Assembly: GCA_001692895.1 (NCBI GenBank)
Contig: KV748216.1
Span: 1,455,143-1,519,142 of the forward strand
Direction of reading: 5' to 3'
Source of the DNA: Cenococcum geophilum 1.58
Lineage: Eukaryota > Ascomycota > Dothideomycetes > Gloniales > Gloniaceae
Length of the DNA: 64,000 nucleotides
Shown: positions 57,484 to 64,000 of the stretch, piece after piece
How the letters are laid out: the number at the start of each line of letters is the position of its first letter
Numbering within the stretch: the stretch's first letter is position 1
The notes under the pieces: model-generated
The model's database searches: none
What the model saw: only the letters and a program-made list of their open reading frames with translations
What the model was told of the DNA's origin: nothing
Made by a program: the position numbers and the translations under genes

Positions 57484-58202
57484 TCTGTCCTCGTTAGGCT
57501 AGTTCATTCGCAGCTTGCGTTATTCGTTTGAATTGGCGGAGAAGTTGACGCTCAGTAGTGTGGAAGACTATACAATGAGGTGTAGCGAGGTGTGAAATGA
57601 GAGGTTGGAGTTGTGTGAGGGCTTGATATTTGTATGGAGTCATTCAAGTTTGTATAGAGGGGCGAAACAGGTTTGCGTCACAATATGTGGCGATATTGTG
57701 GCTGTGATGTGGCGCGCAACAAGCCCGATCACGTGCATGAGCTTGGAGTAACTTCCATTGTTTACCTTGTGGATCCGTCTTCGTTCATATCTAAATATTG
57801 GTAAAGGCAATCATGGAATATATACGGAGCAAAAATGTATTTCTTTTTCCTTTTTGGGACTAGTGGATATCCCATAAGGTCGCTAAGTTAGAGACCCTCC
57901 AGAGAGGCCTAAAACCTCAGCAACCTTATGGGCACCTTATGGGGGGGGAACCGCTAGTCCCAAAAGGAAGGGGAAATCTTACTTTTAGGAGCGGATGAGG
58001 CTCTGCGATAAGATTTTGCCGTACGTTGATCACTACTTAATTGGTTGTAGATCAGGGTGCCTTGGTGTAGATCCTCATGTCTTGTTCTTATTCTTGATCT
58101 CCCATTCGACAGATTTGTATGATAATATTTTAGCTACCCTTCTACTACTCCACCATAAGCTATTAGATATCTAGCCATTTATAGGGAACGTAAATGATAG
58201 TA
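57484..58202. other. Intergenic, PMP3 promoter and a foldback repeat
   Basis: Promoter of the PMP3-type gene, then the foldback element at 57848-57970. At about 58,025-58,050, a GATCACTACTTAATTGG...GTAGATCAGGG stretch resembles one at about 7,494-7,525 (GATCACTACTATATTAGG...TTAGATCAGGGG). This may be two remnants of one retroelement terminus. Confidence 0.45.
57848..57970. mobile_element. ~120-bp foldback repeat (MITE-like)
   Basis: Left arm TCCTTTTTGGGACTAGTGG then CCCATAAGGT; right arm, read in reverse, TTCCTTTTGGGACTAGCGG then CCCCATAAGGT. The arms are inverted and nearly identical over about 35 bases around a short AG-rich loop. No coding capacity. A target duplication is not clear, so the superfamily is open. 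Confidence 0.6.
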
Positions 58203-58277
58203 CAGTAAAATCTCTTTAGCACGATACCGTTTGTTCGGCCAAGCGTATCGTAATACCAATGGTATTTGACTCAGCAT

Positions 58278-58373
58278 GCTCAGACCAAGAAACAGATGAA
58301 TATCCGCTGCGCGGATAATCGAATATCCGCAAGCTAACCTATTCGATCGATCCATCTGTTTCTTGGTCTGAGC
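58278..58373. repeat. Perfect 21-bp inverted repeat (hairpin) with two motif copies in the loop
   Basis: Arms 58278-58298 and 58353-58373 are exact reverse complements (core CAGACCAAGAAACAGATG). The 54-base loop holds two ATATCCGC copies and a GCGGATAA variant. It lies 170 bp upstream of the DUF6589-like ATG, so it could be an operator, a transposase-binding structure or a subterminal repeat. Confidence 0.85.
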
Positions 58374-58544
58374 CACTTTGGCAAGCTTTTGGAAGCCGAG
58401 CCGGTCTGTTTGTATGAGGCAAACCATCAACTTTAACGAAATTAATGTAAGCAACCGCCACGTCTATTATCCTGTCAATACCTGCATTAGAATTGCCTTA
58501 ATCAGCTCTCTAATCGATGGATTTTCCAGAACCAACTGCCAGCC

Positions 58545-61364
58545 ATGGGCGCATCTAAAAGGCGTCGAAGAAACCCCTCTATTTCGTCTAGCAGGAGCCA
58601 GTCTTCTCAAGCTTTTGACAATAAACTACCCTCTCTATTAACCAATACCGCTGGAGGATCAAGAGATACAGCGGATATAGTGCCCGAGGGCATCAGCCGT
58701 CTTGTCCCACCCCCATCATCTCCCCTATCGTCTCCCCCGTCGTCTCCCCCATCGCTATCCGCAGCTCAATGGCGGTCCTCAATAGCCTACTCACCACTGC
58801 CAAACTACATAGATCCCCAAGAGGATGAAGAAGCAGGAGTTGATGAAATACCCGCAATATCCGCAATATCCGCCGAGAAGATATCCGCTGCAGAGAAGGT
58901 CCGGGTAATTGTCGACCGTCTTAGGCCATGGCGGATGTCTATAGGAGACCTAGCGCTTGAATGGATTACAATGGCTGAAGGTTCACGCAAGGCACTAAAG
59001 AAAAAAAGAGCAAGGGAGCTCCTTAACAAACTCCTAGAGGATGCTGATATCCTAGATATCTATACTGAAGAGATGGAGAAGCGCGGCATAGTGGGTGCTA
59101 GTGTTGCTCTTACTATCCAGGGAGAGCTTGAAGAGCTAAGGGAGAAAGAGTCACTATTTGGCAGCTTTGACCAATATGCGGATATTGAGCAGCTTGACCT
59201 TGGGCAGTGCTATCAAGCCGTAAAGACTTACGCACCTACACTAGAGCATGTAATTACAGCATGTCAAGAGGGTCGACGCAAATGTTCTCCGCATGAAGGC
59301 CGTGCGGTTCTAATAGCTTCTACGCTTGCATTTGGCCTTTCACGAAACTCCGCAAACTGTATCCCACGGCTGCTAGGGATGTATCTCCAAGCCAACGGCG
59401 TTAAGCGCCGCGTGCTTTCTGTGCTCCATGGGCTTGGATTAATTGATGGTTATACCACTTTGAACCGGCAGAAGGAGCGGATAGCCCAGGAATCAAGGTT
59501 TAGCCCACAATCTCCGCGGTGCAGGTATATACTAACCTACATACAGGTGAAAATCCGCTTAATGGGTGCAGCTTCTAATACTATTGTTGTCTATGATAAC
59601 TTCGACTACCTCCAACGAGTTCAGCATCAAACACTTGGGGATACTGGGACGTTCTATTCGCGCACGACTGGCAAGCTTGTCTTTGGTGTAAGTATACCTA
59701 ATGGTGGGCTTCGACAGAGCATGCTTCGTGCGGATATTCCAATTAAGTTCTCGGATATTGCAGAGGCTCCAGGTAATTTACAAGACGAGATACAGAAGCA
59801 GATCTCGACAGCTTTAATCTATAAAGCCATTGTAGAGGCGTACCCAGGCCTTGATATATTACTCAGCAAAAACCCGCGGTTCAAACATCCACGTATGCCT
59901 TCTATTAATGTAATACCCGCTGCGCGGACGTCTAGGTTTAACCTAGGACCTATTATGACTGGAGAGGCTTCTATATCTGAAACCTATAAGGTACTAGACG
60001 ACATTTTTCTCCATCAAATGAATCTACAACGCACCGATAAAGCATTTGAGGAGCGACTGTTTCTGATCTATGGTGATCAAAAGACCGCAAAGCTTATTCG
60101 GTCATGTCAGGGAGAACGTACTGAGTCAATATCCGCCTATGATAGCCTGCGTTGGGCTCTGCCTATTCCAGCTCTTTGGCACCTAAAGCTGAACTACCTG
60201 TATATGGTTATACGGTATCACTATGGTGGCAAGCAATCAGCCCAAGAGTACTCTACGCTGTACACCCACATGAACCACCTAGGTCGAAGAAATATCCCAG
60301 CCGAGCGCGCGCCGTTTCATCATATGGAGGAGCTAATTCTCCATAGCTTCGACGCTCGTATCATAGCGTTGCTCCATACTCAGATTAAGGAGTCTTGTAA
60401 CACCAAGTCGCCTATAGATATCAAGCGGTACCTTAAAAGCCTATCTCCGCAACGTCTATTAGCAGTGGTCGAGGATATCCGCACAGCGGTTTTCGGTCAG
60501 GAAGTCTCTCGGGCGGCCAACCATGCCAGCCAGCCTGCGGAACCACGGCAAAAGGGTCACCTTAAGCAGGCTGGCAGTGCTGCATCCTCACAAACACTTT
60601 CTAAGCCTGCTGATGCAGAGTTTCTAACGCACGTCCGCTTTTTACAACTGGTAGAGACGTACAAGGTCCTCAAGCACGCCATCAAGCTTGCGGATATTGG
60701 CCTGCTCAGCCGCGTGCTCCCCCGCATTTGTATCTATTTCGCAGGTGGTCGAAACAAGAACTATCTACCAGAGATGTTACGTTTCTTCCAGTTAACTTCA
60801 ACAGATGCTTGTTCCCCTGAGCTCCAGCAAGCTATCCTAGTAAATAGTCTAGTGAATATCCGCGGCGAACAGGATAGTCACTACCCGATAGATCTCGACA
60901 ACGAGCTACTTAATGGGGAGCTAAAGCAGCTTATGCACACTCGTGGCAATTCGACATTTAACCTAGACTCACTCTTCCGCTGGAGCATTCATATGACTAA
61001 TTATACAGGGCCACTACGTGCAAAGTTTGAGATCACGTTCGGCGAACGGATGTCTACTCGACATACTGTTAAATCTCCTGCAGCGGATATTCAATCGCTT
61101 GCTAATGCGATTGCCGAAGGTTCTATTATCCGCCGTCAGGCACGGCGAGCAAAGATGGAAGCGCCGCCTCTACTACAACTAGGTATTGAACGACTTAATC
61201 AATCTGCCCTCAACGAGTTCAATTCACGGCTAGGCGGTGATCTTTCCGCCGTGTTTGATGAGCTTGATCTCCATGACGATGATAATGAGCTAGATGGCTT
61301 CGTACTCCCTGCCGACTTTGCTCAAACCCAGCTTCAACCTGCGTATGAGTTGCTCGATGAGTAA
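58545..61364 (+). CDS. DUF6589-like protein, possible mobile-element protein
   Basis: A single ORF of 939 codons with a good ATG context (GCCATGGGC). The first ~100 residues are disordered, with a basic KRRRR patch and Pro/Ser repeats. The central part fits fungal DUF6589 as I remember it: VYDNFDYLQRVQHQTLGDTG, an RTTGKL turn, ASISETYKVLDDIFLHQM, LIYGDQKTAKLIRSCQGERT, SLRWALPIPALWHLKLNYLY and EELILHSFDARI. The Asp in VYDNFD, the Asp in YGDQKT and a downstream Glu are candidate catalytic residues, by analogy with RNase H-like transposases; I cannot verify this. The C-terminus is acidic. Codons are shaped by the recurring DNA motif: GCGGATATT reads Ala-Asp-Ile, ATATCCGC reads Ile-Ser-Ala or Ile-Arg, so the protein is rich in ADI and ISA. 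It converges with a helicase gene. Confidence 0.7.
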   Translation: MGASKRRRRNPSISSSRSQSSQAFDNKLPSLLTNTAGGSRDTADIVPEGISRLVPPPSSPLSSPPSSPPSLSAAQWRSSIAYSPLPNYIDPQEDEEAGVDEIPAISAISAEKISAAEKVRVIVDRLRPWRMSIGDLALEWITMAEGSRKALKKKRARELLNKLLEDADILDIYTEEMEKRGIVGASVALTIQGELEELREKESLFGSFDQYADIEQLDLGQCYQAVKTYAPTLEHVITACQEGRRKCSPHEGRAVLIASTLAFGLSRNSANCIPRLLGMYLQANGVKRRVLSVLHGLGLIDGYTTLNRQKERIAQESRFSPQSPRCRYILTYIQVKIRLMGAASNTIVVYDNFDYLQRVQHQTLGDTGTFYSRTTGKLVFGVSIPNGGLRQSMLRADIPIKFSDIAEAPGNLQDEIQKQISTALIYKAIVEAYPGLDILLSKNPRFKHPRMPSINVIPAARTSRFNLGPIMTGEASISETYKVLDDIFLHQMNLQRTDKAFEERLFLIYGDQKTAKLIRSCQGERTESISAYDSLRWALPIPALWHLKLNYLYMVIRYHYGGKQSAQEYSTLYTHMNHLGRRNIPAERAPFHHMEELILHSFDARIIALLHTQIKESCNTKSPIDIKRYLKSLSPQRLLAVVEDIRTAVFGQEVSRAANHASQPAEPRQKGHLKQAGSAASSQTLSKPADAEFLTHVRFLQLVETYKVLKHAIKLADIGLLSRVLPRICIYFAGGRNKNYLPEMLRFFQLTSTDACSPELQQAILVNSLVNIRGEQDSHYPIDLDNELLNGELKQLMHTRGNSTFNLDSLFRWSIHMTNYTGPLRAKFEITFGERMSTRHTVKSPAADIQSLANAIAEGSIIRRQARRAKMEAPPLLQLGIERLNQSALNEFNSRLGGDLSAVFDELDLHDDDNELDGFVLPADFAQTQLQPAYELLDE

Positions 61365-61653
61365 TACAAGATATTAGCTATAAGCTATTACTACAACCGT
61401 TCAATATCCGCTATAGTTAGTAGCACTGGTACATATTCCCAAGTAATTGATATTATTAATTAATTAATCTATTTAGTTCCTGGGCCGCGCTTGCTAGGGG
61501 TGTAGGGTATAAGGGGAAGGGGGGGCGTCATCCTAATAGATATCAGCTACTATGGTTGCAATATCCGCTTGGCGGATATAAGGTAAACTCACCTAGTATT
61601 AGCTAACCCCGCCTGATATCAACTAACCTCGCCTAATATTAGCCCGCTGTATA
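61365..61653. other. Spacer between convergent genes of the candidate element
   Basis: 289 bp with three ATATCCGC/GCGGATAT copies, two of them as a tight inverted pair (AATATCCGCTTGGCGGATATA, about 61,562-61,580). It also has repeated CTAATATTAGC/CTGATATCAAC words and a G-rich tract. Shared 3' region. Confidence 0.6.
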
Positions 61654-64000
61654 CTAATTGGCGTTGCCGTTGATTTCCTGTAGTGCTCTTCGCATACGTT
61701 TGCCTCTGTTTAATCGCGCCGACCGCCTTTGCGGTACCAATAAAGACGTATCCAACTGGCGGGTTGCTGGCGGCATAGATGTATCTNACGGCTGGTATAA
61801 GGGTAATGATGGAGGAGTAGGAGCTGGAGACCCAAGAGTTGGCGAAGGCATAGGTACATCCTCTTCCTGAGTTATTGGCAAGAGGTCTATGGCTGACTGT
61901 TGACTAGCCTGCGATATATCAGCGCCACAGTGAGGCGCTGATTGCCACGGCGCTGATATTTCAAATCTCCTATCTGAAACCTGCGAAGCCCGTATAAGAG
62001 CCTGTGATAAGCGCTCATCCGCAGCAGCGTGCTGCTCTAACGCTTGGGAAAACCGCTCTGACATCTGCATAATTAACCCAGAAGAACCTGAGAGTTGCCC
62101 TATTTCTTTCTGTTTCTGCTTTCGTTCCTCATCTGCTAAAAGCTTAATAAGGGACGGAAGCTCCTCACCGAGGATATCAGGATCCCACTCAGGCATTGCT
62201 TGCCTTAATGATGCCGCATCTGGAACCCACCCTATGTTACAGAGGCGACAAAGCTGCTTATCCGGTATAACACAATTAACTGTAGGCGTCCATAATGTAT
62301 CCTGATACCTGGCCTCCGCCCATTGCGTAAACCACTTCTGTATATTGCTTAACATAGGCTCCCGGCGGGTTTTCGCAATATCCGCACTATGGCTAGTGCG
62401 GATATCGTACTCGCAATCCATGAATATTGCTGGGTTGCAGTTACTGCAACACAAGTCTTTACTAACAGTAGACTGTGGGTCTCCATAGTGTGTAAGTTGT
62501 ATTGCTCGTAAGCATACCTGATCCTCATTAACTAGCCGCCATAGGGTGAACGGCAGTTTACCACGCAACTGCGCATTAGTCAACCGCTTCTTTGGGCGTA
62601 GGGTCGGTACGATAAGCTCTTCAGGTAGGCGTACTGTAGAACCACCAGGGCTTAACCCACGCCCGCTTCTTGTATCTACCAACTGCTCAGTACTGACTGA
62701 CGCTATAGATGAAGCATCGCCCGCAATATCCGCAGTCTCTGCGTTTTGTCGCCCGCGGATATCATTGCGCAGCGCGCTTGCGCGAAGATCGCCTATACAC
62801 TGAGGTTGTGTATGCTTAGAACCACCTAATTCATCGCAAGGACCCCGCCAGCGGCTCTCAACCATAAAGATTGCTTCGCCTGAGAGGCCTTCTCCTCGGC
62901 CTGCCCGGCCAAACCGCTGTGCCAGCATATTACAGGATTTGTGGCGAGGCATTCCATATTGGATCGAACGGTAGATATCCGGGACATCTGCACCGTGTGC
63001 TACTGCATCTGATGCAACGAAAATTCGAATTCGAGACGTTGGGCGCGCGTATTCGGCGTACAAGCGGTCTTTGTCAATATCCGCAAGCGTTGCGTGGTAG
63101 CTCTGCACCGCTTCTCTAGCAACAGCAGCATCGTAGCCGCGATGGATCAACCAGCTGCGAATAGTATTACGACAGGCAGCTATCCACTCCTTAGAATCAA
63201 AGAAGATGATCGTCTTTGGAATCAGCTGAAGTTGATCGAACTGTTGGCGGTATGTCTGCTGTGCGGATATTAAGCGGCTTCTTGATTGCTCGCCTTCTCC
63301 TCGGTCACTATTACTAGCAGTGTGCGAATACACTGGAGCAGCAGCAATAGTAAAGTAAAGAGCTCGAAAGTCCTTCTTCTCTGGCGCGGTCATGACCCTC
63401 CGTATAATCTTTAGCTCCGGCCGATCGATTGGGGTTTTAATAACTTGTATATTAGGTTTAAACCCAGCNAGCTTGCATACAGTCCGAAACGTAGATGGGT
63501 CTAGTGTTGCGGTACATGCAAACCAAGGCTTATCAACTAAGACTGAACGTACTTTAAAGAGTTGTGTGTACGCTATACGGAAGGTCTCTCCCCAATCAGC
63601 AAGCAGGTGTACTTCATCAACCACCACAAGGGCAACATGGGAACGAAATATCGGGTCTATCAGAACCTTATGCAGCTTGTCACTAACCAAAAGCTCTGGG
63701 GAGATAAGGATATGTGTGTAGCTGCCCGTGCGGATATCCTCAATCAGCTCGGCGGATATTGTTTTCTCCCACACATGAACAGGTCGAACATAAGGTAGCT
63801 TTGCAATCTTTTTTACTTGCTCTGACCCAATCGCGTTAAGTGGAAGAACAATAATAACAACTGCATTAGGTACAAGACATGGTAGTGCTTGCATTATCAT
63901 ACTCTTGCCAAAAGACGTCTTTGCCACAAGCATGAGATCTCGCCGCTCAAATATCAGCACCCTCAGGGCCTCGAGCTGCTCCGTATGACCGCGGTACGGA
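61654..64000 (-). CDS. RecQ-like superfamily 2 DNA helicase, 5' end outside window
   Basis: The frame is open for 782 codons and runs off the right edge; the upstream residues YRGHTEQLEALR are still in frame, so the true start lies beyond 64000. Helicase motifs in order: LMLVAKTSFGKSMIMQ (Walker A), VALVVVDEVHLLADWG (DExH box, here DEVH), FACTATL (III), KTIIFFDS (IV), RIFVASDAVAHGADVP (V) and QRFGRAGRGEG (VI). This layout matches RecQ-like helicases carried by fungal repeats and subtelomeres (TLH-like). After the motor come a Cys cluster (CCSNCNP, CRLCNIG), a Gln/Lys helix and a basic tail (RRSARLNRGKRMRR), perhaps DNA-binding or nuclear-localising. Two unknown bases (61787, 63470) give X residues. 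There are no introns, and it carries at least seven of the recurring ATATCCGC/GCGGATAT sites. Its likely role in the element, strand separation during transposition or replication, is inference. Confidence 0.85.
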   Translation of the reverse strand, partial: PYRGHTEQLEALRVLIFERRDLMLVAKTSFGKSMIMQALPCLVPNAVVIIVLPLNAIGSEQVKKIAKLPYVRPVHVWEKTISAELIEDIRTGSYTHILISPELLVSDKLHKVLIDPIFRSHVALVVVDEVHLLADWGETFRIAYTQLFKVRSVLVDKPWFACTATLDPSTFRTVCKXAGFKPNIQVIKTPIDRPELKIIRRVMTAPEKKDFRALYFTIAAAPVYSHTASNSDRGEGEQSRSRLISAQQTYRQQFDQLQLIPKTIIFFDSKEWIAACRNTIRSWLIHRGYDAAVAREAVQSYHATLADIDKDRLYAEYARPTSRIRIFVASDAVAHGADVPDIYRSIQYGMPRHKSCNMLAQRFGRAGRGEGLSGEAIFMVESRWRGPCDELGGSKHTQPQCIGDLRASALRNDIRGRQNAETADIAGDASSIASVSTEQLVDTRSGRGLSPGGSTVRLPEELIVPTLRPKKRLTNAQLRGKLPFTLWRLVNEDQVCLRAIQLTHYGDPQSTVSKDLCCSNCNPAIFMDCEYDIRTSHSADIAKTRREPMLSNIQKWFTQWAEARYQDTLWTPTVNCVIPDKQLCRLCNIGWVPDAASLRQAMPEWDPDILGEELPSLIKLLADEERKQKQKEIGQLSGSSGLIMQMSERFSQALEQHAAADERLSQALIRASQVSDRRFEISAPWQSAPHCGADISQASQQSAIDLLPITQEEDVPMPSPTLGSPAPTPPSLPLYQPXDTSMPPATRQLDTSLLVPQRRSARLNRGKRMRRALQEINGNAN

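Follow-up and report, generated by a model that had tools for sequence, protein, structure and literature searches.

A short DNA word dense along a fungal DUF6589/helicase transposon is kept by selection on the DNA and resembles an element-wide recognition site

Bacterial DNA uptake sequences are short words that are kept in coding sequence, in several reading frames, by preferential recognition; they are spread over the entire bacterial genome and serve DNA uptake. Among mobile elements, AcademH transposons have target-site duplications of ~9-10 bp. The family, attributed to Kojima (2020), reportedly comprises fungal DNA transposons that encode a superfamily 2 helicase together with another protein and have terminal inverted repeats. 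Self-recognition by a dense short word along an entire element has been documented for VANDAL transposons of the plant Arabidopsis (PMC5735166). There, VANC21 binds a 9-base motif, and the density of the motif decides the targets. PMC5735166 and PMC10398659 add that VANDAL groups differ in their words, that these words are mainly non-coding, in one orientation and arranged as tandem repeats, and that VANC binding was shown. Here, we describe an 8-base word, ATATCCGC/GCGGATAT, that is dense in a fungal DNA transposon and lies largely within its genes.

The transposon occupies the right end of the window, the whole 64,000-base stretch that was analyzed, which is itself the right end of contig C41 in a 177.2-Mb genome of 162 contigs (Table 1). 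The contig stops at window base 64000, inside the element. Full copies are 6,443 bp long, with inverted termini (TTGACTCAGCATGCTCAGACCA and TGGTCTGAGCATGCTGAGACAA) and 9-bp target-site duplications; such duplications flank 12 of the 13 copies examined, repeated exactly in 9 and with a single C/T mismatch in 3, the 13th having been scored at a misplaced right end. The DUF6589 protein encoded by ORF1 is the putative transposase. In Pfam at E up to 1, it matches DUF6589 alone, with no known DNA-binding domain besides; a search of the PDB gave no convincing relative (best E 0.11), and a single-sequence structure model was unusable (mean pLDDT 35). ORF2 is cut by the contig end to 781 aa and forms an 883-aa open frame in other intact copies. 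Its best PDB relatives are the RecQ, WRN and BLM helicases, and its Pfam matches at E up to 1 consist of the helicase domains and three weak matches below the cut-off. A VANC-like protein or a MuDR transposase was found for neither ORF in Pfam at E up to 1. Compared by description alone, AcademH is the nearest named family. Kolobok and KolobokH, which have a TTAA target-site duplication, were rejected because the 9-bp duplications vary in sequence and none is TTAA. Helitrons, which are without terminal inverted repeats or duplications and encode Rep and a PIF1-type helicase, were rejected on account of the inverted termini, the 9-bp duplications and the RecQ-like helicase, and because neither Rep nor Helitron_like_N gave a match at E up to 1. 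Directly outside the element, at window positions 57852-57965, lies a foldback repeat with 22-nt arms that is perhaps a small unrelated inverted-repeat element.

Table 1. Features of the transposon in the window, and related features on other contigs (window positions unless a contig is named).
Feature	Position	Strand	Remarks
DNA transposon, left 5,735 bp of 6,443-bp element	58266..64000	.	homology of the copies begins at 58266
Left terminal inverted repeat TTGACTCAGCATGCTCAGACCA	58266..58287	+	differs at one base from the inverted right end in full copies
Left subterminal hairpin, 24-nt arms	58278..58373	.	arms 96% complementary (inverted repeat I1); contains the words at 58300 and 58323
ORF1, DUF6589 protein, 939 aa	58545..61364	+	PF20231 E 1e-68; 11 words
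Three-word local cluster	58857..58888	+	in ORF1
Spacer between convergent genes	61365..61653	.	words at 61404, 61561 and 61572, the last two forming an inverted pair
ORF2, RecQ-like superfamily 2 helicase, 8 words	61654..~64000	-	DEAD and Helicase_C domains
32-bp word palindrome	C1:1553152, C2:666571, C2:3758465 and others		
Intact helicase copies near contig ends	C9, C41, C42, C43, C70, C74, C149		

A genome search with a 401-base left-end query, in which the best 40 of 345 candidates were scored, gave at least 46 matches (40 strong left ends and 6 weak matches at the hairpin), which sets a lower bound on copy number. Among 20 loci examined, seven hold uninterrupted full copies that measure 6,426-6,443 bp (6,442-6,443 bp in six cases), and L048 is an additional full copy with an insert. 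Most of the family copies listed have been hit by repeat-induced point mutation (RIP). At least 59 genomic matches to ORF2 comprise 8 that are stop-free at 100% identity, 1 that is diverged and stop-free, and 50 with stops; at least 49 matches to ORF1 comprise 7 that are stop-free at 100% (5 of them partial) and 42 with at least 24 stops each. Of the eight intact helicase copies, seven are found on the margin of a contig or no more than ~4 kb from one of its ends (Table 1), and several of these are cut at the same element position; the eighth is on C88, whose ends fell outside the comparison. These positions probably arise from assembly breaks in young identical copies; they may also reflect a subtelomeric location. 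Three nonautonomous derivatives of ~1.47 kb (L036, L037 and L049), mutually 96-98% identical, retain ~350 bp from the left of the element and 309 bp from its right end. They contain two words each and have spread with their own target-site duplications.

Of the 26 exact matches to the word in the window, 24 fall in 58300-63759; dinucleotide shuffles of the whole window average 1.53 matches and never exceed 5. The original prediction, which was made from the letters of the window, had put about 24 copies into 5.5 kb of coding and non-coding DNA on both strands, exactly as counted here (13 on the plus strand and 11 on the minus strand). It had also noticed a single copy in the rest of the window; the rarity stands, although the number is two (28331 and 37069). 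The 24 words are distributed over the leader hairpin (2), the DUF6589 ORF (11), the spacer (3) and the helicase ORF (8), and thus 19 of them lie within ORFs. Their spacing is no different from random, with no even or helical spacing seen among the 24, and little sequence beside the word is common apart from an A before it in 17 cases and a C two before it in 13.

Across the genome, the word totals 15,430 occurrences (7,749 + 7,681), or 0.087 per kb, versus ~4 per kb in the element stretch, which excludes an equal density genome-wide. The same letters reversed occur 26,725 times, and the word is therefore uncommon in the genome. In the 20 loci, the 81,029 bases of family DNA contain 245 words (3.02 per kb), whereas the 116,891 bases of non-family DNA, made up of flanks and foreign inserts, contain 4 words (0.034 per kb), one of which sits at the deletion joint of a family copy. 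When the first 100 forward words in the first 2.0 Mb of C1 were considered, both DUF6589 matches there fell in the densest word clusters, each with 9 forward words in 5 kb versus 0.49 and 0.27 expected. Two other arrangements of the word were observed. A 32-bp palindrome that begins and ends with the word (ATATCCGC...TTGCGGATAT, GATTG/CAATC core) occurs on many contigs and is perhaps the hairpin of a further family. At C1:145786, 159323, 947206 and 1509031, which lie away from the DUF6589 matches listed, the word is repeated regularly every ~30 or 15 bp in a minisatellite-like manner.

What keeps the word within the genes? Synonymous codons were shuffled within each gene 3000 times with the protein and the codon counts kept. 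ORF1 contains 11 words versus 1.14 expected, and none of its 3000 shuffles reaches 11 (largest 7); ORF2 contains 8 versus 1.22 expected, and again none reaches the observed number (largest 5). Codon bias is thus excluded as a full explanation. An 8-mer scan of these genes revealed no unrelated top-ranked word with more than three copies. The coding words occupy several reading frames and both strands. The Ala-Asp-Ile (ADI) and Ile-Ser-Ala (ISA) tripeptides that had been predicted as the products of the word are present, but they are not its only readings: the genes of the window also read it as DIR and NIR, and a sister gene reads it as ADI, DIR, HIR and EYPR. Because DIR, NIR, HIR and EYPR occur besides ADI and ISA, a single peptide cannot account for the word.

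The sister gene was found independently of the word. A genome search for PF20231 ranked an intact gene at C75:756301-757560 first, and 1,601 bases at this locus (L051) were chosen as the top PF20231 match, regardless of the word. Across 526 aligned positions, the L051 protein and ORF1 share 54% identity. Outside the words, just 114 of 273 agreeing residues use the same codon, and silent sites are therefore well diverged. ATATCCGC is the commonest 8-mer of L051, with five copies versus 0.59 in synonymous shuffles, none of 3000 of which reaches five. Two word places match between the window and L051 (window 60475 and 60690), three words are present only in the window (59730, 60129 and 60856), and three only in L051 (17, 388 and 882, the first lying just before the BLAST-aligned part); the window word at 61083 falls at the L051 end, outside the position comparison. 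Two diverged families carry the word, and its positions have partly turned over between them. Selection on the DNA word itself, as originally predicted, is well supported by the synonymous shuffles, by the several frames and both strands in which the word occurs, and by a sister family that has the word at partly different positions.

At ~5 kb beyond L051, on the opposite strand, an open frame of 1184 aa includes a stretch (C75:763018-765078) with 48% identity to the helicase. The two genes likely belong to one element, and a helicase lies beside the DUF6589 gene in both the window and the C75 locus. Within C75:753800-771600, the intact DUF6589 gene and the diverged intact helicase gene adjoin a RIP-hit copy of the window's family. 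The L051 family has at least 44 matches in the genome, including fragments (best 40 of 148 candidates scored). Among the 11 family copies on C1-C23 that reach the L051 left end, three (C3, C4 and C18) have an exact inverted word pair with a two-base A/T spacer ~1.0 kb upstream, and the remaining eight are without such an upstream pair.

Comparison within the window's own family bears on a different question. Of 5593 differences between the window and eight full copies, all but 11 (5582) are C>T or G>A changes, with CpA accounting for 3749 and CpG for 1461; this is RIP on an almost unchanged master. Because the copies differ almost solely by RIP, conservation of the word within the family is uninformative on selection; the proposed check of word conservation between diverged copies was for this reason rejected as a sign of selection. 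RIP is less frequent inside the words than expected from sequence context. A trinucleotide-context model over eight copies gives 68 RIP hits in words versus 145.3 predicted (ratio 0.47), and a logistic model over 15 copies gives 114 versus 215.4 (ratio 0.53), hairpin words being included in both. In the logistic model, none of 5000 random sets is as low, and the hits fall short of prediction in 20 of the 24 words and in 14 of the 15 copies. Counts in matched contexts over 26 copies, which include the two hairpin words, show that the sixth base of the word is mutated in 24 of 325 cells versus 55 of 246 elsewhere in TCCGC (site-level P 0.0026) and the fifth base in 5 of 325 versus 31 of 376 elsewhere in TCCG (P 0.0044). 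The opposite-strand cytosine of the word showed no clear protection in these copies (41 of 325 versus 51 of 246, P 0.11).

The hairpin words at 58300 and 58323 are each intact in 25 of 26 copies. They were rejected as footprints because the entire first 100 bp of the element (58266-58365) is depleted of RIP, with 22 hits outside words versus 203 predicted in the 15 longer copies, and because the copies were found via that end. This sparing may stem from ascertainment, from weak RIP at repeat edges or from ends needed for mobility. When the terminal part was dropped and local rates were added, the 22 internal words had 113 RIP hits versus 173.4 predicted, a ratio of 0.65 (~35% below prediction, bootstrap 0.48-0.85), with 16 of the 22 below prediction. 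The word is the most RIP-depleted of 11 8-mers tested (z -3.7, where z has a standard deviation near 1.3 for words generally), but some shorter words are more depleted (CCGAA, z -4.5; ATTCG, -4.1; CGAATA, -3.9). An open word scan that preceded these corrections showed an overdispersion of 2.33 and other RIP-depleted words besides ATATCCGC. Parts of the word that occur outside it displayed no consistent deficit, with RIP ratios of 1.16 for TCCGC (16 sites), 1.53 for ATCCGC (6), 0.96 for TATCCG (6) and 0.76 for ATATCC (6). A strong footprint claim was softened in view of the ratio that remained after these corrections and of the equal or greater depletion of shorter words. The mutation pattern is suggestive of something having occupied the words when RIP acted, as a footprint that is not unique to the word.

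A dense word that is confined to one lineage and has persisted while the proteins diverged and some of its positions changed resembles an element-wide recognition site. We propose, with roughly even confidence for and against, that the word is the site of an element-encoded DNA-binding protein that marks the whole element as self in a VANC-like manner. A sequence-specific DNA-binding protein would recognize the word, and this binder is most likely element-encoded, as either the DUF6589 protein or the helicase. The words of the terminal hairpin would probably serve transposition, and those across the genes and the spacer would let the protein mark the entire element as self. By analogy to VANC on VANDAL, such self-marking would most likely keep the element expressed or shielded from host silencing. 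Several results speak against this proposal: most family copies listed were hit by RIP even so, some shorter words are depleted of RIP as strongly as the word, its opposite-strand cytosine is not clearly protected, and ORF1 matched no known DNA-binding domain other than DUF6589. A protein on dispersed sites, as the original prediction envisaged, is plausible, and the fewer RIP hits inside the words lend it modest support and hint, if weakly, that the words were occupied in the cell.

The protein need not be the element's own. The word could be the site of a host DNA-binding protein, for example an activator, an insulator or a factor of replication or chromatin, from which the element would gain expression or open chromatin. 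A conserved host protein explains one word common to two families at 54% protein identity no less well than a co-evolving element protein does, which makes a host factor a fair rival, and the footprint, if real, is silent on whose protein left it. However, the word is rare genome-wide, and the flanks and foreign inserts in the 20 loci hardly contain it, so that it is not a generally used host site there; on balance, we consider exploitation of a host factor rather unlikely. A host silencing factor is a less likely form of this explanation because the element would be expected to lose such sites. It is also improbable, in our estimate, that an element-encoded protein, when bound to the words, protects them from RIP or from silencing linked to it as a sequence-specific anti-RIP system. 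Equally improbable is that the spared cytosines in dead copies are the footprints of such a system.

The words might instead serve transposition, either as extra transposase sites that compact the element or block self-insertion or as Chi-like sites at which the RecQ-like helicase is loaded or paused. Such a role would accommodate the words in the terminal hairpin, the overrepresentation of inverted word pairs genome-wide (336 versus 86 for the reversed pattern, and 131 places versus 0 with a two-base A/T spacer) and the six inserts inspected by eye in family copies, whose ends are unlike those of the window's family. It is nonetheless unlikely to be the main one: equally common orientations and random-like spacing are unsuited to a Chi-like site, and the three derivatives moved with two words each. 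The dense internal words are therefore unnecessary for mobility as such, which favors expression or protection as their role rather than cut-and-paste transposition. A passive effect of local word duplication, codon or peptide preference, or composition is the explanation to which we give very little credence. The three clustered words in ORF1 (58857-58888) resemble a local short repeat, but the synonymous shuffles, the several frames and both strands, the random-like spacing with little common sequence beside the word, the new places of the same word in the sister gene and the modest copy numbers of unrelated top-ranked 8-mers in these genes all speak against such an origin.

If marking of the element as self by its own protein is the true function, such systems exist under RIP defense, in fungal DUF6589/helicase elements, with words in coding sequence and in diverged families. 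The word constitutes a concrete probe sequence for the function of the DUF6589 protein. RIP patterns in dead copies might, moreover, serve as footprints of proteins bound in the cell. A literature search found nothing on DUF6589 or on such a word; the AcademH paper lay beyond that search, and an earlier description is possible. AcademH transposons are named in PMC10799480.

The element shares features with several described systems. Like AcademH, it encodes a helicase besides the putative transposase and has terminal inverted repeats. Like DNA uptake sequences, its word is short and kept in coding sequence in several frames, but its density is restricted to a transposon lineage. The likeness to VANC and VANDAL consists of a short word that is dense only in one transposon lineage and whose density would mark the element. 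The words here differ from those of VANDAL in that 19 of 24 are coding and that they are dispersed over both strands (13 and 11) with random-like spacing. VANC binding is demonstrated, whereas here we infer binding, and the host defense in Arabidopsis is DNA methylation, in contrast to RIP in the present case. Unlike the words of VANDAL, finally, the word of this element is common to two families whose proteins have diverged to 54% identity.
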